From Acrocarpospora macrocephala (GTDB lineage: Bacteria > Actinomycetota > Actinomycetes > Streptosporangiales > Streptosporangiaceae), in the NCBI RefSeq assembly GCF_009687865.1, contig NZ_BLAE01000023.1:97918-155708 (forward strand): a DNA stretch of 57,791 nucleotides, given 5' to 3'. Below the pieces are notes generated by a model. The model searched no databases, was not told the origin of the DNA, and was given only the letters and a program-made list of their open reading frames with translations. The position numbers and the translations under genes were made by a program. Positions 16,057-29,567 of the stretch are shown in pieces (position 1 is the stretch's first letter; every line of letters begins with the position of its first letter).

Positions 16057-17307
16057 CTACCGCACCCCGCACCGGCGCAGAACCAGCAGCGCCAGCGCCT
16101 GAGTGACCTCGCGCAACTCGCGTAGCTCCACCTGCTCCCGCGGCGCGTGCGCGAAGCGAACATCCCCCGGGCCGTAGTGCAGGGTCGGGATGCCGGCTCC
16201 CGCGTAGATCCGCAGATCGCTGCCGTAGGGCGCGGCCGTCGTCCCCGGACGGGTGCCCGTGACGTCCTCGACCGCCCGCTCCGTCTCGGCGAGCAGCGGA
16301 TGACCGGCGGGCAGCCGCCCACTGGCGAACCGGCCGCCCGGCCAGGTGATCGTGACCGGGTTGGCGCGCAGCCACGGGTCGTCGATCCCGGCCAGCGCCT
16401 CCTCCAGCGCCGCCGCCGCGTCATCCGGATCCTCGTCCAGGCGAACCCCGAGGCGGCCTTCGGCCACCAGCAGATCCGGCACGCTACTCGCCCAGTCACC
16501 GGCGCGGACGGTCCCCACCTCGATCGGGTACGGCGTCGTGTTCCCCGCGAACAGCCGATCCGGATCGCGGTTACGCTCGGCCTCCAGCTTCCTGATCGCG
16601 GTGAACACCGGCCAGAAAGCCTCGATGGCGTTGACGCCCTCATAACGCGTGGCCCCGTGCGCGGCGCGTCCGGCGACTTCCAGGCGGAACGTCAACGACC
16701 CCGCGTTGGCGGTGATGATCTTCCCGCTGGTGGGTTCGGTGATCACGGCTGCCTCGCCGGTGTGGCCGCGCAACATGGTCGCGAACGCGCCCAGACCGCC
16801 GTCTTCCTCGCTGACCACACAATGGAGGGCAAGCGGGCGCGCCAGCCGTACTCCCGTGACCCGCAGAGCGGTCATGACGGCCAGGTTGGCGGCCAGCCCC
16901 GCCTTCATGTCGCAGGCGCCCCGCCCGTGCAGGGTGGTCGCGGTGAGGCGTGCCCCGAAGGGATCGTTCCCCTCCCATTTGGCCAGATCCCCCGTCGGCA
17001 CCACATCCACATGCCCCTGCAGGATCAGCGCGGGCTCACCCTCCCCTTCGGTCGTCCCGACCACGCCATACCCTTCGGCACGCGGCGCCTCCGCACCCGG
17101 ATAGTCCGGATGCCCGCGAAGCATCTCCAGGTCAAGCTTCCACATGTCCACATCGAGCCCAAGCTCCCCCAGCCGCCGGGCACACTCCCCCTGCAACTCC
17201 GACTCGTTGTCGCCACCGGTCACACTAGGCACCCGTACGAGCTCGGCCAGCAGCCGCACGGTCCCCGCCTCATCGATGGCATCCAAAACCCGCGTTTCCA
17301 CACTCAT
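16057..17307 (-). CDS. M20-family metallopeptidase (ArgE/DapE-like deacylase)
   Basis: 416 residues with the full metal-site set: GHVDVVP (His99, Asp101), GRGACDMKAG (Asp133), the SEEDGG acidic pair near 172, and a later HYGPGD. The dimerisation domain in the middle has GRAAHGATRYEGVNAIE. Such enzymes remove acyl groups from amino acids or peptides with two zinc ions. It is the first gene of the run leading to the TetR and penicillin-acylase genes. The pairing of two amide hydrolases with a regulator suggests degradation of a particular acyl-amide. Confidence 0.92.
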   Translation of the reverse strand: MSVETRVLDAIDEAGTVRLLAELVRVPSVTGGDNESELQGECARRLGELGLDVDMWKLDLEMLRGHPDYPGAEAPRAEGYGVVGTTEGEGEPALILQGHVDVVPTGDLAKWEGNDPFGARLTATTLHGRGACDMKAGLAANLAVMTALRVTGVRLARPLALHCVVSEEDGGLGAFATMLRGHTGEAAVITEPTSGKIITANAGSLTFRLEVAGRAAHGATRYEGVNAIEAFWPVFTAIRKLEAERNRDPDRLFAGNTTPYPIEVGTVRAGDWASSVPDLLVAEGRLGVRLDEDPDDAAAALEEALAGIDDPWLRANPVTITWPGGRFASGRLPAGHPLLAETERAVEDVTGTRPGTTAAPYGSDLRIYAGAGIPTLHYGPGDVRFAHAPREQVELRELREVTQALALLVLRRCGVR

Positions 17308-17563
17308 GCGGAGACTGTACGACCCGGTCTAAGGACCCCTAGCAGTCCTCCCTGTCCCTTGGGTCACACCACATAGGCCTGAAAATTGGGGGGTCGCCGC
17401 CGAAACATCCTCAACCGGCAGTCCAAGCCAGGACTCGCGGCTGCCCGGGGGCGTCAATTTCGCCGCTCTCGGCGCCGGTGCGGCGAGAACCACCGCTAGC
17501 GCGAACGGCGCCGGATAACGGCGAGCGACCCGGCTTATTCTGATCCCGACCGAGACCAGCCTG

Positions 17564-18760
17564 CTAGTTTCGCCCGGGACTGACTTCGAGGGCTGCCTGC
17601 CGGGCGGCGATCAGGCTCTCATCCAAAGCCGCACGCAGTTGCTCGATATTGCGGGACAGCCGTTCGATCTCCCCCTTGGCCAGGTCGTCCCGCACGGTGC
17701 TCGCCAGGAGATCCTGGTATTCGTCCGCTTGGTCGGCGAGCGCGCGCAGCTGATCATGGGCCTGGAACAGGCGGTCGGCTTCGCGGACCCGGGCGGCGTA
17801 GCGCTCCAGGGCCTCGACGCGGCTGGTCACCGAGGCGACCACCGTGTCCAGGGTCTCCCGCATCGGGGCCAGCGCCTCCTCGACCGGAGCGGCCACCCCG
17901 CCGGCGAGCAGCTGGGCCTGATCGGCGCGCAGCCGGGCCACCCTGCTCAGCGCCTTGGCGATCTCCCATTCCTCCACGGGCAGGATGACCTCGTGATCGG
18001 CCGCGTCCAGCAGGCCCTCCTGGTAGACGGTGGCCTTCCGCACCCGCCGGATCGCCTTCTGCGCGCGCACCACCAGCGCCCGGCCGGCGTCGTCGAAGTC
18101 CTGATCCACCAGGAACCAGCCCGGATTGGCGTGCGCGAGCTCGGCCAGCCGCTGCCTCGGCAGGGTATGCCCCCGCCGTAACACCGACAGCATGCCGAGA
18201 ACCACCGCGATCATCAGCGCGGTCTGGATCACGCCCAGCTGCGGTGAGGCCCAAATGAAGGTCACCATGCACAGGATGAAGCGCATCGGGGCCCGCCAGC
18301 CGTCCTTCTTGTCCGATCCGTAGCGGGACCAGGGGCTGCCCGTGCGCACGTGCCGTACCAGCGCCAGGTCGGCCTGGAGCGCCTTCCTGGTATCGGCGGG
18401 GATATCCGGATCCAGGATGGTGCGCGCCCGTCTCCCCGTACGCTCCGGTTTCTGCGGCTCCGGAAGGCCGGCTCGCCGGACCACCACCCTGACCCAGTCC
18501 GCGGGCATATGGCTGTCGAAGGCGGTGTCATCCGGTTCGATGACGACGGACACCGTACCTTCGCCCTGATGCCTGGTGGTGACCGGTCCGATCATGGACG
18601 CCGGATAGCGCACCCAGTAACCGTCACCCGAGCTCTGGCACCGATACTGCCCCGGTGCGACGTCGATCCCGACGACGTACATGCCGTCGCCGGGAATACG
18701 GTCCTCATATTTCACCGCCACCCGCAACGCCCCCTTTACCGTGACTTTACCCATCGGCAC
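17564..18760 (-). CDS. Hypothetical membrane protein with C-terminal coiled coil
   Basis: About 398 residues; the start could be GTG 18760 or ATG 18754. The N-terminal ~90 residues are beta-rich, with GDGMYVVGIDVAPGQYRCQSSGDGYWVRYPA, a pattern of surface or structural domains in actinobacteria. Two close hydrophobic segments follow (about 158-195). The last ~150 residues are helical and charged (RVEALERYAARVREADRLFQAHDQLRALADQADE), consistent with a coiled coil. I do not recognise a named family. The gene stands alone, on the same strand as the DUF1349 gene upstream of it. Confidence 0.65.
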   Translation of the reverse strand: MPMGKVTVKGALRVAVKYEDRIPGDGMYVVGIDVAPGQYRCQSSGDGYWVRYPASMIGPVTTRHQGEGTVSVVIEPDDTAFDSHMPADWVRVVVRRAGLPEPQKPERTGRRARTILDPDIPADTRKALQADLALVRHVRTGSPWSRYGSDKKDGWRAPMRFILCMVTFIWASPQLGVIQTALMIAVVLGMLSVLRRGHTLPRQRLAELAHANPGWFLVDQDFDDAGRALVVRAQKAIRRVRKATVYQEGLLDAADHEVILPVEEWEIAKALSRVARLRADQAQLLAGGVAAPVEEALAPMRETLDTVVASVTSRVEALERYAARVREADRLFQAHDQLRALADQADEYQDLLASTVRDDLAKGEIERLSRNIEQLRAALDESLIAARQAALEVSPGRN

Positions 18761-19469: not shown

Positions 19470-20198
19470 TCAGCGGATGAGGATGGCGTCGCCGAGGACG
19501 GCGCCGCGGTTGTTGCCGTTGGCGTTTTCGCCGCCTACGCGGACGGTGGTGATGCGGAGTTTGACGTTGCCTTCGATGGGGACTGAGATCTTTTCCTGGG
19601 AGGCATACTTCATGCGTTTGCGCATGAGTTGGCGGCCGTTGCCGGAGATGGTGAACTCGACGACGGCGTCGGGGCTGAGGGCGTCGTTGAGGCCGATGGT
19701 GGCTTCCAGGCGTTTGGCTTTGCCGTCGAGGGTGTATTCGGCGAAGCTGGCGTCGCCGATGTTCCAGACGCCGAGGCCGACGCTTTTGACGAAGATCTGG
19801 CCGTTGATGGCGAGGGGGTCCACGCCGTAGTTGCCGCCGCCTCGGTCGATGTCCAGGTCGGCCAGGTATTCGGATTGGCCGACGGGCATGTCGGTGGGGG
19901 CGGTTTCCGTGGGGAGGGCCGTGGTCGCGGTCGGGGTGGGGTCTGGTGTCGGGGCGATGACGACGTTCGCGCTGGGGCTCGCGGTGACGGTGGCGGTCAC
20001 GGATTCGGTGACGGTTGTGGTTGGGGCCGTGGTGGTGGCGCTGGTGAGTTTGGCGGGGGCGACTGGGCCCCAGAAGAACATGACGAGGCCGACGACCACG
20101 GCGGTCACCAGGATGGCCACGATGATGGCGATCTTGTGGGGGCCTCCGGGTTTGGGGGCGTTGTACTGTTCGTAGGGAACCGGCAAATTCGCGGTCAC
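19470..20198 (-). CDS. Membrane-anchored protein with NPCBM-like carbohydrate-binding domain
   Basis: 242 residues. A short cytosolic tail with a Pro/Tyr-rich start (YEQYNAPKPGGPHK) is followed by one membrane helix (about 23-45), then a ~60-residue Thr/Ser/Pro linker. The C-terminal ~130 residues resemble NPCBM/NEW2: LADLDIDRGGGNYGVDPLAINGQIFVKSVGLGVWNIGDASFAEYTLDG, ending in NNRGAVLGDAIL. This puts a sugar-binding module outside the cell on a flexible stalk. It is encoded downstream of the exopolysaccharide operon on the same strand, across a 198-bp gap. Confidence 0.8.
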   Translation of the reverse strand: MTANLPVPYEQYNAPKPGGPHKIAIIVAILVTAVVVGLVMFFWGPVAPAKLTSATTTAPTTTVTESVTATVTASPSANVVIAPTPDPTPTATTALPTETAPTDMPVGQSEYLADLDIDRGGGNYGVDPLAINGQIFVKSVGLGVWNIGDASFAEYTLDGKAKRLEATIGLNDALSPDAVVEFTISGNGRQLMRKRMKYASQEKISVPIEGNVKLRITTVRVGGENANGNNRGAVLGDAILIR

Positions 20199-20396
20199 CG
20201 TTTCACCCCATTCCGCGCGGCGAATAGGGATGAAAACGTAGCCGCAGGAGGCGGAGGTTCGTCACACGATTATCAACCCGTTATCCGGACATAAATCCTG
20301 ATATCACGAAATTTCGGGACTAATGGTTGGTCACAAGATGGGGACGAGGGGAAAGCCAGGTGCCTGATCTCCATTTTGGTGGTGGCCGGAATTCGG

Positions 20397-21272
20397 TCAG
20401 GGTTTGAGGGAGAGGGCGGTGGCCAGGAGGCGCCAGGACTCGTAGGGAAGGTCGTGTTCGGGGTCCTCGCTCACCACCTGGATGGCGACATGGTCGGCGC
20501 CTGCGGCCAGGAAGTCCCGGACCCGGGTGGCGACGCTGTCGGCGTCGCCGATCGCGACCATGGCGTCCACGAGACGGTCGCTTCCGCCGTCGTAGAAGTC
20601 GTCGTCGGTGAAACCCATCCGGGCGAGATTGCCGGTGTAGTTGGGCAGTCCCAGATAGAGGGTCAGATACGGCCGGGCGATGGCGCGTGCCTTCTCGACG
20701 TCGGTGTCGAGAATGACCATGAGTTCGGGTGCCAGCAGGGCGTCTGGGCCGAGAACCCGCCGGGCCCACCTGGTGTGCTCGGGCGTCACGAGGTACGGAT
20801 GCGCCCCCGCCGCCCGATCCCTGGCCAGCGCCAGCATCCTCGGCCCGAGAGCGGCCAGCACGCGCTCGTCCACCGGCACGGGCTCGGGAGCTTCGTCCAG
20901 CGCGGTCAAATACTCCCGCATCGCGGAGTACGGCCGCTTGTATTGATCGGTGAAGCTCTCATGACTCACCCCGAGCCCCAGAACGAAGCGGCCGGGATAC
21001 GCGCGCTCCAGTTCGGCCCGCTGGGCGGCGACTTCGGCGGGCGTGTGCTGCCAGATGCTGAGAATGCCGGTGGCCACGGTGATCCGCGGCGTCGCTTCGA
21101 GCAGCGGCGCCGCGAATGTCACCGCCGGGGATCCGCCCAGCCAGATCGTGTCGTAACCGAGCAGGTCGACTTCTGACGCGGCGTCGGCGAACTCGGGGCC
21201 GAGCTTCCCGTCTTCACGCAGGGCATTGGTCCACGCCGTACTCCAGATACCGAACGTGCCCAACCGACTCAT
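20397..21272 (-). CDS. LLM-class (probably F420-dependent) oxidoreductase
   Basis: 291 residues from ATG 21272, with GAGG upstream; the previous gene ends 8 bp before. The bacterial luciferase-like fold is visible in RLGTFGIWSTAWTNA, LGYDTIWLGGSPAVT, TPRITVATGILSIWQHTPAEVAAQ and FVLGLGVSHESF. Actinobacterial members of this subgroup usually use F420, which I infer rather than see. It closes the polysaccharide operon by position; a role in that pathway is not obvious, and it may simply be a co-transcribed passenger. Confidence 0.85.
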   Translation of the reverse strand: MSRLGTFGIWSTAWTNALREDGKLGPEFADAASEVDLLGYDTIWLGGSPAVTFAAPLLEATPRITVATGILSIWQHTPAEVAAQRAELERAYPGRFVLGLGVSHESFTDQYKRPYSAMREYLTALDEAPEPVPVDERVLAALGPRMLALARDRAAGAHPYLVTPEHTRWARRVLGPDALLAPELMVILDTDVEKARAIARPYLTLYLGLPNYTGNLARMGFTDDDFYDGGSDRLVDAMVAIGDADSVATRVRDFLAAGADHVAIQVVSEDPEHDLPYESWRLLATALSLKP

Positions 21273-21280
21273 GAAATACC

Positions 21281-21964
21281 TCACTCTCCTTTGGAACGAC
21301 GCCCTGGTGCAGCGTTGTCATTCCTGGGGAGAGGGAGGCGTTCGTAATAGGTGGGAAGGTTTTGCCAAGGGTTGGGACAGGCTCCGCTGGTGACGAATAT
21401 CGTCTGGGCCAGCCGGCTGGCGCCGCGTTGCACGAATCGGCGGGCCCAGCCGGGCACGCCGTACACGAGGTGGCAGAACTGTTCGGGGAGGCGAGCCCAG
21501 GCGGGGGCGTTTACCGCGCGGTAGGAGGTCCATGGGCCTTCGAAGGTGACCAGCAGGTCGGTGACGGCGGCGTAACCGGGGTCGGGGTAGACGCCGGGGT
21601 TCAGGACCAGGCGGCCCTGGCCGCGCAGGGCTGCCGCGGCGACCCGGTAGTGGGAGAGCCGGTCGGCGCCCGCCGCGACCTGGTCGAGGAAGGCGCCGCC
21701 GACGCCGTACCAGGAGCGGTAGCGGCGCGCGTCCACCACCAGCTCCCGGATCGGCCGGTCGCCGTAGGCGGTGTCGAGGTATCCCAGGACTTCGACGCCC
21801 GCCGCCAGCAACGGCTCAAGGACGCGGACGAAATCGGGGTCCCTGGTCGTGCCGGGCCCGCTGTCCACGTTCAGCACCACGGTCTTGGGCGGCCGCGCGG
21901 CCAGCCGCCGCCAGGCCGCCTCCTGGGCGACCGGATGAAAGTACGCAGGAACCAGCACGCTCAC
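21281..21964 (-). CDS. Spherulin-4/GH114-type glycosidase (Ega3 / PelA-hydrolase-like)
   Basis: 227 residues. Spherulin-4 family features are clear: VLVPAYFHP, VLNVDSGPG, GYLDTAYGDR, YGVGGAFLDQV and LLVTFEGPW. By comparison with the family, Asp94 (AFLDQ) and Glu142 (TFEGP) are the likely active-site pair. Relatives (fungal Ega3 and the hydrolase domain of PelA) cut alpha-1,4-linked galactosamine polymers. No signal peptide is seen, which is unusual for a secreted-glycan hydrolase. The start overlaps the end of the SDR gene by 4 bp, so it is part of the polysaccharide operon. Confidence 0.85.
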   Translation of the reverse strand: MSVLVPAYFHPVAQEAAWRRLAARPPKTVVLNVDSGPGTTRDPDFVRVLEPLLAAGVEVLGYLDTAYGDRPIRELVVDARRYRSWYGVGGAFLDQVAAGADRLSHYRVAAAALRGQGRLVLNPGVYPDPGYAAVTDLLVTFEGPWTSYRAVNAPAWARLPEQFCHLVYGVPGWARRFVQRGASRLAQTIFVTSGACPNPWQNLPTYYERLPLPRNDNAAPGRRSKGE

Positions 21965-22797
21965 GCAGGAACCTCATTCCAGGCGTCCGCCAGCGAATCC
22001 CGCAAGGCGATCCTCGCCTTCCAGCCCAGCACGGCCCCGATCGCCGTGACGTCGGCGCACGACCACGGCAACGCCGAACTCCCCTCCGAAGCGGACACCA
22101 CCCGCCCCCGCCACGAAGCCACCTCGATCATGAGCTCCACCAGATCCCGTACGGCTACCGCCCGCCCGGTCCCCACATTCAGCACCGGCGGCAACACCCC
22201 CGGAGCGAGCGCCGCCGCCACGATCGCCTCGGCCACGTCCCGGACATCCACGAAGTCCCGCACGTCACTGGTCACCCCTAGCCGCAACTCGCCTCCGGCC
22301 CGCATCCCCGCCACCAGCCGCCCGGTCAGACTGCCGAGCGGCGCCCCCGGCCCCACCGGATTGAACAGCCGCAACACCACTCCGTTCCGGACCACCCCCG
22401 CCACCAGGCGGGTCCCCGCCAGCTTGGTCAGCCCGTACTCTCCGAGCGGCCGGCACTCCGCCCCCTCCCCCACCGGCACGTCATGGGCCCCGTACTCGGC
22501 CGCCGACCCCACATGCACGACCCGCGCCTCCGGCACGACTTCCCCTACCGCCCGCGCCAGCCGAGCCACCCCGACCACGTTCCCGGCCACCAACCGCTCC
22601 GGAGACCCGTGCACGACGCCGGCACAGTTGACGACAGCCGTCGGCCGCAGGTCCTCCAGGATTCGGCGGATCTGCGCGTGTGGCGTCTCGACCAGGTCGA
22701 GGTCCGACCGGCTGGGGGCCGCGACTTCGACGCCCCCCAGCCGCTCTCGCACATGCCGTCCGACGAAACCGGACGCGCCGACGAGCAGCACGCGCAT
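21961..22797 (-). CDS. NAD-dependent epimerase/dehydratase (extended SDR), nucleotide-sugar type
   Basis: About 278 residues from ATG 22797 (MRVLLVGASGFVGRH). The glycine-rich NAD motif GASGFVG and the active-site YGLTK (Tyr-x-x-x-Lys) are present, together with HVGSAAEYG, which carries the catalytic Ser/Thr region. It is shorter than a typical GalE. It starts 1 bp after the nucleotidyltransferase stop and overlaps the glycosidase gene by 4 bp. A role in making or altering an NDP-sugar for the polymer is inferred from the neighbours. Confidence 0.85.
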   Translation of the reverse strand: MRVLLVGASGFVGRHVRERLGGVEVAAPSRSDLDLVETPHAQIRRILEDLRPTAVVNCAGVVHGSPERLVAGNVVGVARLARAVGEVVPEARVVHVGSAAEYGAHDVPVGEGAECRPLGEYGLTKLAGTRLVAGVVRNGVVLRLFNPVGPGAPLGSLTGRLVAGMRAGGELRLGVTSDVRDFVDVRDVAEAIVAAALAPGVLPPVLNVGTGRAVAVRDLVELMIEVASWRGRVVSASEGSSALPWSCADVTAIGAVLGWKARIALRDSLADAWNEVPA

Positions 22798-22798
22798 G

Positions 22799-23512
22799 TC
22801 ACACGCCTCGCAGCAGTGCCGGACGCAGCAAGTCGAACTCCGCGTTGGCACGGTCGTAATCGTCGGGCCGCCCGATATCCAGCCAGTGCCCGTCGAAGTC
22901 GTACTGCGCCGGATGCCTCCCCTTCCGCAGCAGGTCGAGCACGAGTTCGTCGAAGCCCAGGGGCAACCCGGGCGGGTAGCCGTACAGGCATTGTTTGGAA
23001 ATGGCGTACACCCCCATGCTGACCCGGTAGTCGATGGTGGGTTTCTCGGTGAATTCGACGATGCGGCCGTCGGCGGCGGTGAGGACGCCGAAGTCGATTT
23101 TGACCTCGCGGCGGTAGGTGGCGATGGTGAGGGGGGCGCGGCCCTGGCTGTGGCCGTGGAGGAGGTCGCCGAAGTCGAGGTCGGTGAGGATGTCGCCGTT
23201 CATGACCAGGAACTGGGCGGGGAGGTCGTCGAGCATGGTGAGCAGGGGGCCCATCGTGCCGAGGGGTGAGGTCTCCAGCGCGTAGTCGACGTGCAGGCCC
23301 CACTGGGCGCCGTCGCCCACGTACGCCCGGATGAGATGCCCGAGATGTCCGATGGCCAGTGTCGCGGTGGTGAAGCCGCGTTCGCCGAGCTGGCGCATGA
23401 TGATCTCCAGGATGGAGTACTGCTCGCCGATCGGCACCAGCGGTTTGGGCAGCGTGGTGGTGTATGGGCGGAGGCGAACCCCTTTGCCACCCGCCAGGAT
23501 CACTGCGTGCAC
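22799..23512 (-). CDS. Sugar-1-phosphate nucleotidyltransferase
   Basis: 237 residues from GTG 23512, preceded by GAGGG. The N-terminus VHAVILAGGKGVRLRPYT...PKPLVPIGEQ is the NTP_transferase signature, with the base- and phosphate-binding GGKGxRLxP and the PKP lysine. FLVMNGDILTD carries the metal-binding Asp. The C-terminus has GHWLDIGRPDDYDRANAEF. It makes an NDP-activated sugar; the exact sugar and base cannot be told. It is in the middle of the tightly packed operon. Confidence 0.92.
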   Translation of the reverse strand: MHAVILAGGKGVRLRPYTTTLPKPLVPIGEQYSILEIIMRQLGERGFTTATLAIGHLGHLIRAYVGDGAQWGLHVDYALETSPLGTMGPLLTMLDDLPAQFLVMNGDILTDLDFGDLLHGHSQGRAPLTIATYRREVKIDFGVLTAADGRIVEFTEKPTIDYRVSMGVYAISKQCLYGYPPGLPLGFDELVLDLLRKGRHPAQYDFDGHWLDIGRPDDYDRANAEFDLLRPALLRGV

Positions 23513-23519
23513 GAATCCC

Positions 23520-24497
23520 TCACACGTTGTAGATGGTCGTCTTGTACCGGTCGAGGTTGCCCGGGAACCAGGCCGCGCAGGCTTTGAGCCCGTCGTCGAG
23601 CGTCCAGGCCGGAGCCCAGCCGCGGGCCTGGAGCCGGGAGCTGTCACAGACGAGCCGCATGACCTCGGAGTTCTCCGGGCGCAGCCGTTCGGTCTCGCAG
23701 CTGAACTCCACCGCGGCGCCCATGATCTCGGCGATCTTCCCGGCCAGGTCGCCGATGGAGATCTCCTCGCCGGTCCCGGCGTTGAACAGCTCGCCCTCGA
23801 CGCCCTCGGCCGTCCCGAGATGGGCGAAGGCGGCGGCGGTGTCCTTCACGTACAGGAAGTCCCGGGTCGGGCGCATCGCGCCGAGCCGCACCGAACGCGC
23901 CCCGGCCGCGATCTGCCCGATGATTGTCGGAATCACGGCCCTGGCCGACTGGCGCGGGCCGAAGGTGTTGAACGGCCGCAGCGTCACGGCGGGCAGCCCG
24001 AAGCTGAGGTGGTAGCTCTCGACGAGTTTGTCCGCGCCCAGCTTGGAGGCCGCGTAGGGCGACTGGGCCTGCAGCGGATGCGCCTCCGAGATCGGCACCG
24101 AGCGCGCGGTGCCGTAGGTCTCGCTGGTCGAGGTGTGCACCAGCCGCCCGGCGGAGGCGTCCCTGACGGCTTCCAGCACGTTGAGCGTGCCCAGCACGTT
24201 GGTCTCCACATACGACCGGGGGGCGGTGTAGGAGTACGGAATCGCGATCAGCGCCGCGAGGTGGTAGACGACGTCGGCCCCGGCCACCAGCTGCCGTACG
24301 CTGCCGGGATCGCGCACGTCGCCGGGCACGACCTCGACCGAGGCGAGCACATCGGGGGCGAGGGTGTCCAGCCACCCCCAGCTTCCGAACGAGTTGTACT
24401 GGGCCATCGCGCGCACCCGATGGCCGCGCTCGACCAGCAGTTCGACGAGGTGGGAGCCGATGAAGCCGTCGGCTCCTGTGACAGCGTGCATTCGCAT
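23520..24497 (-). CDS. LegB-like NAD-dependent NDP-HexNAc 4,6-dehydratase
   Basis: 325 residues from ATG 24497. The sequence follows the LegB group (UDP-N-acetylglucosamine 4,6-dehydratase) closely: TGADGFIGSHLVELLVERGH, YNSFGSWGWLDTL, VVYHLAALIAIPYSY, VHTSTSETYGTA, SPYAASKLGADKL and GPRQSARAVIPTIIGQI. The Tyr-x-x-x-Lys is in SPYAASKLG. LegB proteins take UDP-GlcNAc to a 6-deoxy-4-keto sugar. If this one does so, the donor built here would be a modified 6-deoxy hexosamine, not plain GalNAc. It starts 22 bp after the membrane-protein gene, in the same operon. Confidence 0.88.
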   Translation of the reverse strand: MRMHAVTGADGFIGSHLVELLVERGHRVRAMAQYNSFGSWGWLDTLAPDVLASVEVVPGDVRDPGSVRQLVAGADVVYHLAALIAIPYSYTAPRSYVETNVLGTLNVLEAVRDASAGRLVHTSTSETYGTARSVPISEAHPLQAQSPYAASKLGADKLVESYHLSFGLPAVTLRPFNTFGPRQSARAVIPTIIGQIAAGARSVRLGAMRPTRDFLYVKDTAAAFAHLGTAEGVEGELFNAGTGEEISIGDLAGKIAEIMGAAVEFSCETERLRPENSEVMRLVCDSSRLQARGWAPAWTLDDGLKACAAWFPGNLDRYKTTIYNV

Positions 24498-24519
24498 CGC
24501 AAGCCTGTTCTGTAGGGGG

Positions 24520-25791
24520 TCATCTGTGCAGGGAGGTGCGCGCGACCGCCGACCAGGCGTGGCAGGTGATCGCGAGCAGCAGCGCGAGATGCGCGGCGAA
24601 CTGGATCCCGGGCGTCTTCGGCGCGGCCAGTTCGGCGGCCAGGGTGACGGCGAAGAGCCCGAGCACGGGACCGTTGATCCCGCAGGACTGCAGAATGAGC
24701 GCGACCAGCACCGCGCCCCCGAGCGCCAGGTTGGCCGCCAGCCGGAGCGTCTCCGGCTGCGCGAGCATCCCCGCAAGGGCGGTGAGGGCGAGTAGCACGG
24801 CGAGATACCGGCCGAGCGCGCCGAACAGTTCGGCTCGGACGGCGCGCGCGAACCGCCGCGCGGTGGCGGTCCGGCCGAGCAGCAGGTGCCCGCCGCGCCG
24901 GAACCGGAACACCGCCCATTCGGCGGCGCCCATGCTCAGCGACAGCGGCACCATGGCCAGCGCCCCGTTCGTCCCCACGGCGAGCAGCCCGCCGCAGAGC
25001 GCCCCGAACAGGGCAGGGGGGATCGCGCCGAGCAGCCTCCCCCGCGTGACGGCCTTGGCCGAGGTGCGGCTGACGACTTCGGCGAGCACGACGGCCTCGG
25101 CGACGGAGAGCGCGCCCGCCGCCCAGACCGCCCACGGCGCGGGCCACCCGCTGGCCAGGTGGACCGCGCTCACCACGCACCCGGGAACGAGCACGGCCAG
25201 CAGCACCAGCTCCCCGTCGGCGACCAGGATCACCCCGGCCGCCAGCAGGTAGGCCGCCTGCCCGACCGCGAGCACGATCCCGGCCACGCTCGCCGAGGTC
25301 AGCACGCCGACCCCGGCGATGACGGGCACCAGCACCGCCAGCCCGAGCCGGAGCGCCCGCCGCGCGACCGCCAGCCCCGCCTCCCCGTGGCCGATCGCCA
25401 CATAGGCGAGATAGGCGGCCCCCTGCCCGTACGCCCATGCGAGCAGCAGCGAAACCACCAGCACGACCGTGGACCCCGTCACCGCCTGCGCCGCGGTGAC
25501 GTAACACAACCCGGGCAGCCCGAACAGGATCCCCCGGATGGCATGCCGCCCCGGATTCCCGTCCCACGGCGTGGGAACCTCCACCGTAGGCTCGACCGGC
25601 TTGCGCGGCACGCTCCGATACAGCGCCTCCGCGTACGCGAACACGTCCGAATGCCCGTGCCGCGCGGCGGCCTCGTCGGTCAGCCCGCCGAACTCCAATC
25701 CGGCCGCGATCTCCAGCGGATCGACCGCGTTGGCGCACAGCTCATGCACCTGATCGTCCACCGGCTCCGGCAGCACGGTGGGCGCGCTCAT
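24520..25791 (-). CDS. Polytopic membrane protein of the PelF-linked polysaccharide operon
   Basis: 423 residues. A cytosolic N-terminal domain of ~85 residues includes VDDQVHELCANAVDPLEIAAGLEFGGLTDEAAARHG. About ten to twelve hydrophobic helices follow. The gene overlaps the pelF stop by 4 bp (ATGA), so it is closely coupled. By position and topology it is the best candidate for the membrane partner or exporter role that PelG fills in Pel systems, but I see no PelG-specific motif. Its N-terminal domain recurs, as I recall, beside actinobacterial PelF genes, which I could not check here. Confidence 0.75.
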   Translation of the reverse strand: MSAPTVLPEPVDDQVHELCANAVDPLEIAAGLEFGGLTDEAAARHGHSDVFAYAEALYRSVPRKPVEPTVEVPTPWDGNPGRHAIRGILFGLPGLCYVTAAQAVTGSTVVLVVSLLLAWAYGQGAAYLAYVAIGHGEAGLAVARRALRLGLAVLVPVIAGVGVLTSASVAGIVLAVGQAAYLLAAGVILVADGELVLLAVLVPGCVVSAVHLASGWPAPWAVWAAGALSVAEAVVLAEVVSRTSAKAVTRGRLLGAIPPALFGALCGGLLAVGTNGALAMVPLSLSMGAAEWAVFRFRRGGHLLLGRTATARRFARAVRAELFGALGRYLAVLLALTALAGMLAQPETLRLAANLALGGAVLVALILQSCGINGPVLGLFAVTLAAELAAPKTPGIQFAAHLALLLAITCHAWSAVARTSLHR

Positions 25792-27170
25792 GCCGCCACC
25801 AGCCGCGGATAGAGCGTGCGAAAACTGTCCACGGCCCGATCCACGGTGAACAACCCGAGCGCGCGCTCCCGCGCCTCAGCCCCCAGCCGGTTACGCAGCT
25901 CGTGGTCATTGAGCAGGGTCAGGCACGCCTCCGCCATGGCCTCCGGATCGCGCGGCGGCACCACGAGCCCGGTCCCGGCGACGGCCTCCCGCACCCCGCC
26001 CACATCGGTGGAGACCGTCGCCCGCCCGGTCGCCATCGCCTCGATCAGCGTGTACGGAAACCCCTCCGAAATACTGGACAACACCACGACATGCCCCGCC
26101 GTGTACGCGTCCCGGATGTTGTCCACCCGCCCTTCGAAGGCGACCGGCAGATCCCCGGCCAGCTCCTTGCACCCGGCGAGATAGCCCTCCCGCCCGGCCG
26201 GAGTCCCGCCGAACACCCGCAACCGCGCCTCCGGCAGCTTCGCGTGCACCCGCCCGAAGGCCAGGATCAGCGTCTCCAGATCCTTGATCGGGTCAATCCG
26301 CCCGGCCCAGCTGAGCGTGGGCGCCTCCGGCTCGGACCCCGCCGGCTCGAACTGCTCCGGGTCCACGCCGTTGTAGACCGTACGCAACCGGGCCGGATCG
26401 GCCCCGCACCGCACCTCCCACCGGATGTTGAACTTGTTCCCCGGCGTGATCAGGCTCGCCTCCAGATACGCCGCCGCGCACAGCAGCCGCAGAAAGCTCA
26501 GCATCAGCGCCTTCACCGGCCACCGGTACGGCGAGTTCCGGAACCCCAGATACCGCTCCCGCAGGTACACCCCATGCTCGGTCAGCACGAACGGCGTCCC
26601 TTCGGTCCACTTCGCCGCGAACGCGGGCAGCACGGCGAGCCCGTTCGCCACCACGTGGGTGACGTCCGCCGCGGGCGCCGGGCGGAGCAGCGGGCGCAGC
26701 GAATGCTCGATCAGATCCACCGCCGTGACCGCGTCCCGCACGGTCGGCGTCACCCCGAGCCGCTCGAACTCGGCCCGCCGCGCCTCCCACACGTCCAGCA
26801 CGCAGCGCACCGAGGTCTCGCCGCAGAGCGGGACGCCGCTCTGGAGCAGCTCGCGCAGCAGCGCGCCGAAGCGGGCCGCCGACCCCTGCCAGGGGTCGAG
26901 CATCAGGTCGAGCATCTCGCGGAACAGCTCCTCGAAGCGTCTTCTGGTCCGGCCCCGGGGCGGGCGGCCTGGCGGCCCGCCCCACAGCGGGATGGGCGTG
27001 ACGGTGGCGTTGCCCGGCAGCTCCCAGGCGAGGCTCTCCCGCCCGGTGCCGGTGATGGCGTGCAGGTCGAAGCGATATTCGGGCATGCCGCGCACCAGCT
27101 GGTCGCACCAGACGCTGACGCCGCCGTGGTGGTGGGGGTAGGTGCCCTCGGTGACCATCGCGATGCGCAT
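25788..27170 (-). CDS. pelF: PelF-family GT4 glycosyltransferase
   Basis: 460 residues from ATG 27170. The start MRIAMVTEGTYPHHHGGVSV, followed by WCDQLVRGMPEY, is diagnostic of PelF (DUF3492 + GT4). GT-B fold landmarks: FVLTEHGVYLRERYLGF, VYNGVDPEQF, SWAGRIDPIKDLETLI and the donor-site SEGFPYTLIEAMATGRATVSTDVGG (E-x7-E). PelF is a cytosolic enzyme that joins UDP-GlcNAc/GalNAc units in the Pel exopolysaccharide. Here it lies between an exported deacetylase and a membrane protein, starting 5 bp after the former. Confidence 0.93.
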   Translation of the reverse strand: MRIAMVTEGTYPHHHGGVSVWCDQLVRGMPEYRFDLHAITGTGRESLAWELPGNATVTPIPLWGGPPGRPPRGRTRRRFEELFREMLDLMLDPWQGSAARFGALLRELLQSGVPLCGETSVRCVLDVWEARRAEFERLGVTPTVRDAVTAVDLIEHSLRPLLRPAPAADVTHVVANGLAVLPAFAAKWTEGTPFVLTEHGVYLRERYLGFRNSPYRWPVKALMLSFLRLLCAAAYLEASLITPGNKFNIRWEVRCGADPARLRTVYNGVDPEQFEPAGSEPEAPTLSWAGRIDPIKDLETLILAFGRVHAKLPEARLRVFGGTPAGREGYLAGCKELAGDLPVAFEGRVDNIRDAYTAGHVVVLSSISEGFPYTLIEAMATGRATVSTDVGGVREAVAGTGLVVPPRDPEAMAEACLTLLNDHELRNRLGAEARERALGLFTVDRAVDSFRTLYPRLVAA

Positions 27171-27175
27171 GGGTG

Positions 27176-29185
27176 TTACGGCAGCAGCAGCTTGATCGGC
27201 ATGAGCAGCGCGTTGCGCTGGTAGGCCGACAGCTCGCCCGCGTACGCGGAGCCGAACGGGCTGCTGCCCAGGTTGAGCAGGTTGGGGACCCTGGTCCCGG
27301 TGGGGGCGGTCAGCGGGACGTCCAGGTTGTCGGGGGCGGCCACGTAGACGACGCCGTTCTGGATGTAGCCGGTGACCTGGTTCATGTTCTGCTGCCAGAG
27401 CCGCATGCGCCGGATCTCGGCGCCGATGGCCGAGGTGCGCAGGTTCACGATGGGGGTGTTGGCCGAGAACAGGGTGCCGTACTGGCTGAACAGGCCGGTG
27501 AGCACCTGGTAGAGCAGGTGGTCGCCGGTCAGGTTGGACTGGTGGGCGTAGTGCGGCCAGGGCAGGCCGCTGAGCACGTGCCGCAGCGCGTTGCGCACCT
27601 CGATGGGGGCGATGTGCTGGGTCCAGCCGGTGGCCGGGTCCAGCGGCGGGATGCAGGTGGTGGTGGCCGGGTTGTCCTCGCAGATGCCGGATCCGCCGTC
27701 GGCGCGGCTGTTGTAGATCCAGTTGTACTCGTCCACCTCGTCGGCGACGGTGGCGACGTTGTAGAAGATGTTCATCGGGTAGCGCGGCACGGTGAACGCG
27801 CCGCCGACCGGGCGCTGCGCCGGGTCGCGGGAGGCGTCGCTGCCGATCCACTTCACGCCGGTGCTGTTCAGCGCCGGGGCCAGGTTGGGGTTGTCGACCG
27901 GCTGGCGGGGCTGCAGGAACAGGCCCGAGTGCTCGCCGGTGACCAGTTCGGTGGTGTCGACGGGGAGGCCGTGCTGGGTGGCGAACTGCTTGTTGCGGTT
28001 GATCTCGTCCTCGATGGTTGCCCGGGAGGTCCAGACGATCTGGCCCTGGGCGTTGGTCGCGCATCGCCACGGCAGGACCGAGTAGTCCTGGGCGCAGCCG
28101 AGGAACGGGTGGGTGTAGGTGTGGTTGCTCCACCGGAACCTGGCCTTGTTGGCCTTGAGGCTGGTCAGCAGCGGGTCGGCGCCGCCGTGCTCGGCCGCGT
28201 AGAGCGCGCTGCCGCCGCCGTTGTAGTAGAAGTCCAGCGTGAAGCCGCTGGTGTTCTGCCACTGGACGGCGGCGGTGACGTCGGCGGGCGTCATCCGGAT
28301 GCCGGTCTCCGGCACGCCGGGCGGGCAGTCGCTGGCCGGGGTGCAGTTGTTGACCGGGTCCCATTTGGTGTCGTCGCCGAGCACGTCGTCCACGTGCACG
28401 GCGAAGTAGTTGCGGTCGTAGCCGAAGTGCACGCCCTTGGTGAGCCAGCTGATGATCCCGTGGGAGATCATCTGGAACTGCTTCTGGTTCTGGTTGAACG
28501 CGGCGGTGACGACCATCTCGCTGCGCCCGTCGTGGGTGTAGACCCCGGCGAGTACGCCCTGGGTGGCGCTGTTCGGGACGGGCGCGGTGAGCAGCGGCTG
28601 GAAGCTCCGGCCGCCGGCCGGGTCGTCGGGCAGCGGCGTGGCCAGGTAGCCGTAGCTCTCGCCGACGACGGGCGACTCGTCCTCGAACGGCACCTGCCCG
28701 GCCAGGTACGGGAACGGGCCGCCGGGGACGACCGTGGCGGTCATGCCGTCCAGGGTTCCGGCGTATTCGGGATAATTCAGGCCGACGTCCGGGTAGGCGT
28801 AGACGTACGCGCTGAGCTGGCGGATGCCGAATTTCTTCTCGAAGTTCACCAGCGCGGTCATTTCCGCCTGATCGGTGAAGGGATTGGCGTTCGGCAGGAT
28901 CACGCCCTGGAACTTGGCCCGGTCGGACGCGCCGACCGTGTCGGCCAGAAATCCGGGGGTGATGATCGGCCGCCCGGGGCTGGTGAGATCCACTTTCTGG
29001 TACGGCACGCCTTCGGAGTCCATCGCGTTGGCGATCGCCTCGGTGGACGGGGTGCCGTCGGACACGAGCAGGATCTTCATATTGATCATTGGCTCGACGG
29101 CGTGGGCCGCGGTCCCGGGAATCAGGACGAAGGCCGAGGTCAGGCCGAGGACGGCCGGACCGAATCTGCGCACGAATGCCACCAT
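27176..29185 (-). CDS. Agd3-like (CE18-type) exported polysaccharide deacetylase
   Basis: 669 residues from ATG 29185 (or GTG 29182, which sits better behind AGGAGG at 29187-29192). A signal peptide runs to about residue 29 (AAHA). The N-terminal ~200 residues (MKILLVSDGTPSTEAI...) look like a binding domain of the CBM87 type found in Agd3. The deacetylase core shows YFAVHVDDVLGDD (His264, Asp266, Asp267) and SNHTYTHP (His355, His359), the metal triad pattern of CE4/CE18 enzymes. Fungal Agd3 deacetylates galactosaminogalactan; PelA does the same for Pel. The first gene of the operon, thus probably the furthest-acting outside the membrane. Confidence 0.82.
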   Translation of the reverse strand: MVAFVRRFGPAVLGLTSAFVLIPGTAAHAVEPMINMKILLVSDGTPSTEAIANAMDSEGVPYQKVDLTSPGRPIITPGFLADTVGASDRAKFQGVILPNANPFTDQAEMTALVNFEKKFGIRQLSAYVYAYPDVGLNYPEYAGTLDGMTATVVPGGPFPYLAGQVPFEDESPVVGESYGYLATPLPDDPAGGRSFQPLLTAPVPNSATQGVLAGVYTHDGRSEMVVTAAFNQNQKQFQMISHGIISWLTKGVHFGYDRNYFAVHVDDVLGDDTKWDPVNNCTPASDCPPGVPETGIRMTPADVTAAVQWQNTSGFTLDFYYNGGGSALYAAEHGGADPLLTSLKANKARFRWSNHTYTHPFLGCAQDYSVLPWRCATNAQGQIVWTSRATIEDEINRNKQFATQHGLPVDTTELVTGEHSGLFLQPRQPVDNPNLAPALNSTGVKWIGSDASRDPAQRPVGGAFTVPRYPMNIFYNVATVADEVDEYNWIYNSRADGGSGICEDNPATTTCIPPLDPATGWTQHIAPIEVRNALRHVLSGLPWPHYAHQSNLTGDHLLYQVLTGLFSQYGTLFSANTPIVNLRTSAIGAEIRRMRLWQQNMNQVTGYIQNGVVYVAAPDNLDVPLTAPTGTRVPNLLNLGSSPFGSAYAGELSAYQRNALLMPIKLLLP

Positions 29186-29567
29186 GCCTCCTATGGGGAA
29201 ATCCAGACATGTGCCATATCTACGGCCTTTTCCTATTGAAGGCGCGAAATGGCTATCTGGTGAGATCGCAAGGCATAGTTATAGCGGCGGATTCCTTATT
29301 GACGGGGAGCCTCAGAGAATTCAACTGCGGTTGACACCGTGACAAAATCACAGAACGTCGAATCGAATTCGGCAATTATGGGCATACCCCTGCGATTCGC
29401 GTTGGCACGCCAGGAAGTGGGGGTGCCAATTATTTCAACGCGAAAAATCCGGATATATGGCTGAGGCTCGGGCATGTGGAACGGTCCGCGCACGCGGGCA
29501 CCGCCCGGATTTAACGGACTTGTGACACGTGGCTACTTGCCGTCGGAAGCCCAGTAAACTGCTAAAT
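29186..29567. other. Divergent intergenic region between the polysaccharide operon and the GroES-like gene
   Basis: 382 bp with lower GC than the surroundings (stretches such as AAATGGCTATCTG, ATAGTTATAGCG, TTATTGACGG). It holds the strong AGGAGG site of the deacetylase gene (29187-29192, minus strand) and an inverted repeat TTGGCAC...GTGCCAA (29402-29408 with 29423-29429). Minus-strand TATAAC (complement near 29280) could be a -10 element for the operon, but I find no good -35, so no promoter is assigned. No gene is visible. Confidence 0.6.

Follow-up and report, generated by a model that had tools for sequence, protein, structure and literature searches.

A probable Pel/galactosaminogalactan-like exopolysaccharide operon in Acrocarpospora macrocephala and related actinobacteria

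The stretch of DNA analyzed here, hereafter called the window, comprises 57,791 nucleotides of the actinobacterium Acrocarpospora macrocephala (contig NZ_BLAE01000023.1, which is C23 among the 166 contigs of a 12.1 Mb genome). Inspection of its open reading frames (ORFs) reveals eight that are co-directional on the minus strand between positions 20397 and 29185, and neighboring ORFs are separated by gaps of no more than 22 bases or overlap by 4. Seven of these genes probably constitute an operon, and it is likely, judging from sequence comparisons and structure models, that they encode the synthesis, export, and maturation of an exopolysaccharide resembling Pel and galactosaminogalactan. Gene content, gene order, motifs, predicted folds, and co-occurrence are reported below as observed. 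The genes, whose limits were refined from the sequence itself, are as follows.

27176 to 29185, minus strand: exported polysaccharide deacetylase of predicted Agd3 type (CE18/CBM87), from profile, predicted fold, and motifs
25788 to 27179, minus strand: PelF-type GT4 glycosyltransferase (DUF3492 plus GT4), from NF038011 and DUF3492; start codon GTG, with an alternative in-frame ATG at 27170
24520 to 25791, minus strand: polytopic membrane protein in the place of PelG, with a MOP-flippase-like predicted fold (AlphaFold2 model)
23520 to 24497, minus strand: LegB-like nucleoside diphosphate (NDP)-sugar 4,6-dehydratase, from TIGR04180 (below cut-off)
22799 to 23512, minus strand: sugar-1-phosphate nucleotidyltransferase, from NTP_transferase, with uridylyl- and mannose-1-phosphate guanylyl-type relatives
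21961 to 22797, minus strand: extended SDR protein, a 4-keto-reductase or 4-epimerase, from the Epimerase model and solved relatives
21281 to 21964, minus strand: Spherulin-4/GH135 (Sph3-family) protein without a signal peptide, from PF12138 and phmmer
20397 to 21284, minus strand: F420-dependent LLM oxidoreductase, a neighbor outside the operon, from TIGR03620

Related loci were surveyed with a simple gene caller of our own and BLAST thresholds. From at least 579 relatives the 80 closest were kept, which biases the counts of gene order toward near relatives, and these counts use the 69 of the 80 loci in which at least 7 kb of sequence follows the deacetylase. PelF and then the membrane protein directly follow the deacetylase in all 69, and the complete order of deacetylase, PelF, membrane protein, LegB, nucleotidyltransferase, SDR, and Spherulin-4 is present in 57. 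Because this order is kept while the deacetylases of related loci, except four from Acrocarpospora, are only 50-55% identical, the grouping is not a matter of chance. The LegB, nucleotidyltransferase, and SDR trio is absent from nine loci, of which five retain Spherulin-4 and four carry PelF and the membrane protein only. Two further loci lack a separate Spherulin-4 gene (none was detected in L089; in L079 a single 552-residue open frame at 17057-18715 spans both the SDR and the Spherulin-4 sequence, which looks like a fusion unless it stems from the sequencing), and one ends after the nucleotidyltransferase.

In an evenly drawn sample of actinobacterial genomes, the deacetylase occurs in 9 of 296, and PelF adjoins it in nine of the ten loci concerned (the exception is in genome G001). 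Within the organism's own family the deacetylase occurs in 17 of 200 genomes, five of them from its own genus, and some of these loci are the same records as in the 80-locus set. PelF lies beside the deacetylase in 8 of 11 loci from these 17 genomes. As for the other three, the deacetylase stands alone in L185, the contig ends in L189, and L186 (genome G330) has no detected PelF and carries other operon genes on the opposite strand. An earlier reading of this DNA, made from the sequence alone, had asked whether actinobacterial PelF homologs are consistently found without these neighbors. The answer is mixed: 9 of the 13 strong DUF3492 loci (>150 bits) in the 296 genomes adjoin the deacetylase, versus 9 of all 24. 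In one further locus (L027; G294:C5:93182-94914), a deacetylase homolog with in-frame stops is accompanied by the membrane protein and two PelF-like genes.

The assignment of the deacetylase relies on profiles and predicted fold, since single-protein Pfam scores are below cut-off. The protein alone gives Agd3_CE at E 0.022 and CBM87 at E 0.038 (14.2 bits each against a cut-off of 27.6), reaches 24.9 bits with the Pfam heparan-sulfate N-deacetylase model (cut-off 25), and has no phmmer match in the PDB at E 0.1. A profile of nine relatives (A1) matches the Agd3 structure 6NWZ with an E-value of 5.8e-34, and this profile includes distant members that by themselves match Agd3 better than the window protein does. 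Agd3_CE matches all nine members and CBM87 seven of them (E up to 0.1), with best E-values of 1.7e-37 and 3.9e-14. With a stricter profile of 25 closer relatives only (A6), 6NWZ is again the top match, at E 9e-6. The AlphaFold2 model (pLDDT 84) aligns with 6NWZ by Foldseek over 765 columns at 15% identity (E 7.7e-29, TM-score 0.68), and the three-domain CBM87-CE18-beta architecture is found in the predicted model aligned in this way. The closest named record that we found is from Acrocarpospora pleiomorpha, at 97% identity.

The CE18 catalytic motifs CM1 to CM4, as defined in the text of PMC7229062, are represented by D266/D267, H355/H359, R468, and H548, respectively, and all are invariant in the 25 close relatives. 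The CM3 place is occupied by Cys in L031, one of the more distant rows of A1. The N-terminus is hydrophobic, with a likely signal peptide extending to about residue 29 (by eye and hydropathy), and it is strongly hydrophobic in 78 of 88 deacetylase rows; signal peptides here and below were judged by a hydropathy heuristic rather than SignalP. Thus, the product of 27176-29185 is predicted to be a distant CE18/CBM87 deacetylase of the Agd3 type, as the sequence-only reading had claimed: profile, four motifs, and the fold match to 6NWZ bear this out, and the CE18/CBM87 similarity whose absence that reading named as a refuting point is present. The second-best fold match is human NDST1, a heparan-sulfate N-deacetylase (E 3.1e-16), a likeness that hints at a common ancestry for the polymer N-deacetylases of bacteria, fungi, and animals. 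PelA and PelADA entries are not among the 50 Foldseek matches shown, and their presence in the library was unchecked.

The glycosyltransferase scores 147 bits with NF038011, above the cut-off of 100, in agreement with its earlier identification as PelF. It also matches DUF3492 in Pfam (E 6e-49), and its motifs are largely invariant across 79 rows.

No Pfam family matches the membrane protein encoded at 24520-25791. An AlphaFold2 model built from a 30-sequence alignment (pLDDT 89; the row L105, apparently in the wrong frame, was dropped between alignments A2 and A3) places four short N-terminal helices before about 12 long helices by our own count. Its best Foldseek matches are MATE, WzxE, and MurJ, with TM-scores of about 0.4-0.5 and one E-value under 0.001, and the protein is accordingly predicted to adopt the 12-transmembrane fold of the MOP superfamily. 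The N-terminal helical segment (approximately residues 1-75) is conserved among relatives and would be cytosolic; it is 42-65% identical over 38-73 residues between membrane proteins that are otherwise very different.

PelG is also a MOP-type protein, and by place and predicted fold the membrane protein is PelG-like. PelG itself (PF16933) was not found in the genome that contains the window, as the sequence-only reading had supposed, nor in the three Streptomyces-like genomes with Agd3 (G128, G161, and G182), and a direct profile comparison of the membrane protein with nine PelGs gave no match. A bridging family of four sequences (A7) reaches E 9.6e-18 against the membrane-protein family; against PelG it reaches E 0.0018, with a score of 35.0 over 405 columns at a probability of only 14.7%. 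This score is above all 40 block shuffles (best 26.3), and reversed sequences score no higher than 20.5, over 39 columns or fewer. One of the four A7 proteins matches Pfam PelG below cut-off (E 2.4e-4) and three match nothing. Because L215, a generic flippase, likewise shows a slight match to the PelG model (E 0.0032), we treat the link as a lead only, by which the membrane protein is possibly related to PelG by descent. The export machinery, which had been expected to be new, is therefore probably not wholly so, given the MOP fold, the position of PelG, and the weak A7 bridge.

The two proteins show a complementary distribution. Among the 296 actinobacterial genomes, PelG exceeds its cut-off in three and the membrane-protein profile (E 1e-5 or better) is found in 15. 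Fourteen of these 15 are among the 18 genomes with DUF3492 at E 1e-15 or better; of the other four genomes, three have PelG over cut-off and one (G295), where the contig ends, has neither. No genome among the 18 has both. In L029 and L030, from another class of the phylum, PelF, PelG, and an Agd3-like gene form a single run; a GGDEF protein is encoded upstream, GH135 lies on the other strand, and PelG there occupies the position that the membrane protein holds in the window. The match values are 490 bits for PelF and E 2.6e-142 for PelG in L029, and 459 bits for PelG in genome G011. PelE and PelD were not recognized, and Pfam and NCBIfam show no cyclic di-GMP-type domain in the seven proteins. 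A search for PelD (PF16963) likewise returned nothing from the genome, though no positive control responded either.

The next three genes suggest, by their sequence families, a module that makes an NDP-6-deoxy amino sugar. The LegB-like protein scores 453 bits with TIGR04180 (cut-off 475), has TDP-glucose 4,6-dehydratases as its best solved relatives, and keeps TSTSETYG and the Tyr and Lys of YxxxK in all 62 rows. The nucleotidyltransferase matches NTP_transferase (E 2e-34) and reaches 125 bits with NF052502, below the cut-off of 440; its signature is near invariant in 62 rows, and its solved relatives are of the uridylyl- and mannose-1-phosphate guanylyl-type. The SDR protein matches Epimerase in Pfam (E 2.8e-30), its SAAEYG and YxxxK motifs are near invariant in 63 rows, and its best solved relatives are MoeE5 and a GDP-6-deoxy-D-lyxo-4-hexulose reductase (2pk3). 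LegB of Campylobacter jejuni acts on GDP-GlcNAc, according to the text of PMC7439481. A legionaminic acid pathway is not favored, as Pfam and NCBIfam revealed neither an aminotransferase nor a synthase belonging to it among the eight proteins.

The last operon gene encodes a GH135 protein of the Sph3 family (PF12138, E 1.3e-32), given that the solved structures related to it are 5c5g and 5d6t, both of spherulin-4 (Sph3) (phmmer, E ~5e-11). These matches rule out the Ega3 or PelA type of hydrolase proposed earlier, which would belong to GH114 or GH166, respectively. The putative catalytic acids of Sph3 are given in the text of PMC10485009 as Asp166, Glu167, and Glu222. D94 (nucleophile Asp) and E142 (acid/base Glu) are invariant in all 73 GH135 rows (72 distinct). 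The residue after the Asp, which is Glu in Sph3, is R in 36 rows, Q in 35, and E in 2, so the full Sph3 triad is not conserved; both rows that keep E come from PelG-bearing loci. The ORF starts at the SDR stop, which leaves no space upstream for a signal peptide, and 70 of 72 rows have no strongly hydrophobic N-terminus (exceptions, L054 and L070). The window protein is therefore probably cytosolic, and because relatives share both the missing signal peptide and the replaced Glu (71 of 73), we infer that operons of this type as a rule have an altered GH135 located in the cytosol. By contrast, the Asp-Glu pair is intact and the N-terminus hydrophobic both in a second Spherulin-4 protein of the same genome (contig C17) and in the one from L029. 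In the 296 genomes Spherulin-4 passes in seven, each of which also belongs to the set of 18 that have DUF3492 at E 1e-15 or better.

GH114, the family of Ega3, is present in 51 of the 80 closest loci, and in 48 of the 65 that have at least 9 kb downstream. It occurs in 38 of 53 complete-order loci with that length and in eight of the nine loci without the sugar module. The window and the four Acrocarpospora loci (L033-L036) do not contain it; one GH114 gene lies on another contig of the genome. The identity of GH114 was checked by Pfam for two operon examples and this gene.

The eight ORFs that the sequence-only reading described as tightly coupled are all where it placed them, and Pfam and NCBIfam matches support its families for PelF, the LegB-like protein, the nucleotidyltransferase, SDR, Spherulin-4, and LLM. 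The eighth did not hold as an operon component: the LLM gene (TIGR03620, 374 bits against a cut-off of 219.8) adjoins the operon in only one of the 80 closest loci (L035), 69 of which have at least 7 kb downstream, and on this ground it is placed outside the conserved unit. A promoter scan found none, terminator-like sites number two versus an average of 3.0 in shuffled sequence, no inverted repeats occur in 29186-29530, and one 12-base palindrome lies in 20199-20396. Downstream of the LLM gene, 19470-20198 encodes a protein with an NPCBM/NEW2 domain. Immediately upstream of the deacetylase, 42 of the 80 loci have a gene for a small secreted-looking protein with sub-cut-off Pfam matches only (e.g., L045:7548-8168) and 14 have a gene that by eye resembles a response regulator; the window carries neither.

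A paralogous locus was also encountered in Streptomyces-like genomes (L159, L190-L195; seven of eight genomes labelled g3), where DUF3492 scores about 100 bits. Its order is PelF-like glycosyltransferase, membrane protein (sharing the N-terminal segment described above), SDR, Spherulin-4-like protein, and ThiF/rhodanese, with DUF3152 nearby in six of seven and no deacetylase match. The motif of the Spherulin-4-like protein was readable in five of the seven, and in these the acid/base Glu is replaced by S, Q, R, or A.

The general operon type is already in print. Agd3 homologs were reported in 45 bacterial species (Bamford et al. 2020, PMC7229062), and the text of that paper describes GH114 as highly consistent in agd3 operons and spherulin-4 as present in some of those from Actinobacteria. 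Agd3-bearing actinobacterial operons have thus been known since 2020. The window operon differs from these by its lack of GH114 and by unusual parts: a GH135 without a signal peptide and with one acidic residue replaced, and a LegB/nucleotidyltransferase/SDR module that suggests another amino sugar. Sections 13 and 14 of PMC7229062 give no account of the membrane-protein fold, a cytosolic GH135, or this module, and nowhere in the main text of that paper is PelF named.

CE18, GH135, and GH114 are, by the texts of PMC7229062 and PMC12054363, the three modifying enzymes of the fungal galactosaminogalactan (GAG) cluster (gtb3, agd3, sph3, ega3, and uge3), and GH135 and GH114 are galactosaminidase families. 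The window shares with this cluster an Agd3-type deacetylase and an Sph3-family GH135, and most relatives checked, though not the window, share an Ega3-like GH114. By description, PelF and a separate MOP-fold protein stand in place of Gtb3, and the LegB-like, nucleotidyltransferase, and epimerase- or reductase-like SDR proteins stand in place of the Uge3 epimerase. Unlike fungal Sph3, the GH135 protein has no signal peptide and its second acidic residue is replaced. The Gram-positive pelDEADAFG operon (PMC7112168) and PelADA (PMC13254593), as their texts describe them, similarly combine PelF with an exported deacetylase. In contrast, the window's genome has no recognizable PelG, its deacetylase best matches CE18, and PelD and PelE were not recognized (the PelD search being without a responding control). 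The membrane protein resembles the MOP flippases MATE, WzxE, and MurJ in predicted fold, and differs from them in its extra conserved N-terminal helical segment and in matching no sequence family.

Substrate, polymer, GH135 topology, and each functional step are what we infer from these data. A CE18-type deacetylase, PelF, and a galactosaminidase-family protein do occur in one operon, which was the hallmark that the sequence-only reading had cited, and the presence of PelF alongside the CE18, GH135, and GH114 families suggests a partially de-acetylated polymer of the alpha-1,4-galactosamine type. PelF would polymerize an N-acetylgalactosamine (GalNAc)-type sugar nucleotide on the cytosolic face, and the MOP-fold protein would take over PelG's role and move the chain across the membrane, the helical segment at its N-terminus perhaps serving as a docking part. 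Outside, the exported CE18 enzyme might strip part of the N-acetyl groups to leave a cationic chain that adheres to hyphae and surfaces, and a secreted GH114, encoded in most of the relatives' loci checked and elsewhere in this genome, could cut de-acetylated stretches. GH135 may trim or sense chains at the synthase on the cytosolic side, and the LegB/nucleotidyltransferase/SDR trio may add or substitute a 6-deoxy amino sugar.

Several facts weigh against this reading. The CE18 similarity of the window's own clade is weak by sequence (E 9e-6), its PelF is far below true PelFs (147 versus 490 bits), and the link of the membrane protein to PelG is indirect. A GalNAc polymer does not need the LegB/nucleotidyltransferase/SDR module, GH135 lacks a signal peptide and one of the three acidic residues of Sph3, and GH114 is missing from the window and from 15 of the 53 loci that have both the complete order and at least 9 kb downstream. 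Many matches to the membrane-protein profile span only the N-terminal segment, and genome G171 has this profile without DUF3492 at threshold. Finally, one operon copy (L155, G182:C4:334000-353000), with the run PelF, membrane protein, LegB, nucleotidyltransferase, SDR, and Spherulin-4, has no deacetylase in 19 kb.

It could also be argued that the operon makes a different N-acetylated surface or wall glycan, whose main sugar (e.g., a 6-deoxy-N-acetylhexosamine) would come from the three-gene module, with the PelF-like glycosyltransferase building lipid-linked units, the MOP protein flipping them like Wzx, and CE18 de-acetylating the product. The presence of the module, with intact motifs, within the complete order of 57 of the 69 loci fits this idea, as do WzxE among the fold matches and the Streptomyces-like paralogous locus, where a glycosyltransferase, membrane protein, SDR, and Spherulin-4-like protein occur with no deacetylase match. 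We nevertheless consider it unlikely: neither an initiating phosphoglycosyltransferase nor a Wzy-like polymerase was recognized among the operon proteins by Pfam or NCBIfam, the nine loci without the module keep PelF and the membrane protein (eight of them with GH114), and galactosamine polymers are the substrates of the GH114 and GH135 families.

That the locus is merely a diverged ordinary Pel operon, with PelD, PelE, and PelG functions under unrecognized genes and the sugar-nucleotide enzymes as unrelated passengers, seems quite improbable. PelF is present and A7 is weakly similar to PelG over 405 columns, yet PelG is not found in the genome, the seven proteins have no cyclic di-GMP-type domain, the supposed passengers keep their order in 57 of 69 loci, and the best fold match of the deacetylase (among the 50 shown, which hold no PelA or PelADA entries) is CE18 Agd3. 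Very improbable, in our view, is a nutritional role in which the CE18-like protein acts on host or environmental glycans beside a separate glycosylation cluster. Such a role would accord with Agd3-like genes that have no PelF detected in the fetched stretch (L028 in G001, L185 in G308, and L186 in G330) and with the heparan-sulfate N-deacetylase as second-best fold match, but the genes overlap in the window and PelF lies directly downstream of the deacetylase in all 69 loci.

A Pel/galactosaminogalactan-like exopolysaccharide is thus the reading that we prefer. A more detailed version is tentative and, as a whole, rather doubtful: the operon may represent a distinct actinobacterial branch where a MOP exporter descended from PelG gained a cytosolic adaptor at its N-terminus for recruiting both PelF and a retuned GH135 of the cytosol, and where the LegB/nucleotidyltransferase/SDR module supplies the chain with 6-deoxy-GalNAc (D-fucosamine-type) units. 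The product would be a mixed galactosamine/fucosamine cationic polymer that is not yet described.

If the preferred reading is true, many Streptomyces and related antibiotic producers would have what is needed genetically to make a cationic galactosamine polymer, the sort of polymer that drives Aspergillus and Pseudomonas biofilms. This polymer would be a further candidate hyphal glue alongside the known poly-beta-1,6-GlcNAc, which is reportedly made by MatAB. With PelG replaced by a MOP protein that carries an additional N-terminal part, the Pel export step would become testable in a Gram-positive organism. Moreover, loci that unite PelF and PelG with GH135 and an Agd3-like gene, and those that combine CE18, GH135, and GH114, would mark a bacterial route toward the fungal GAG cluster, such as has already been proposed in the text of PMC7229062.

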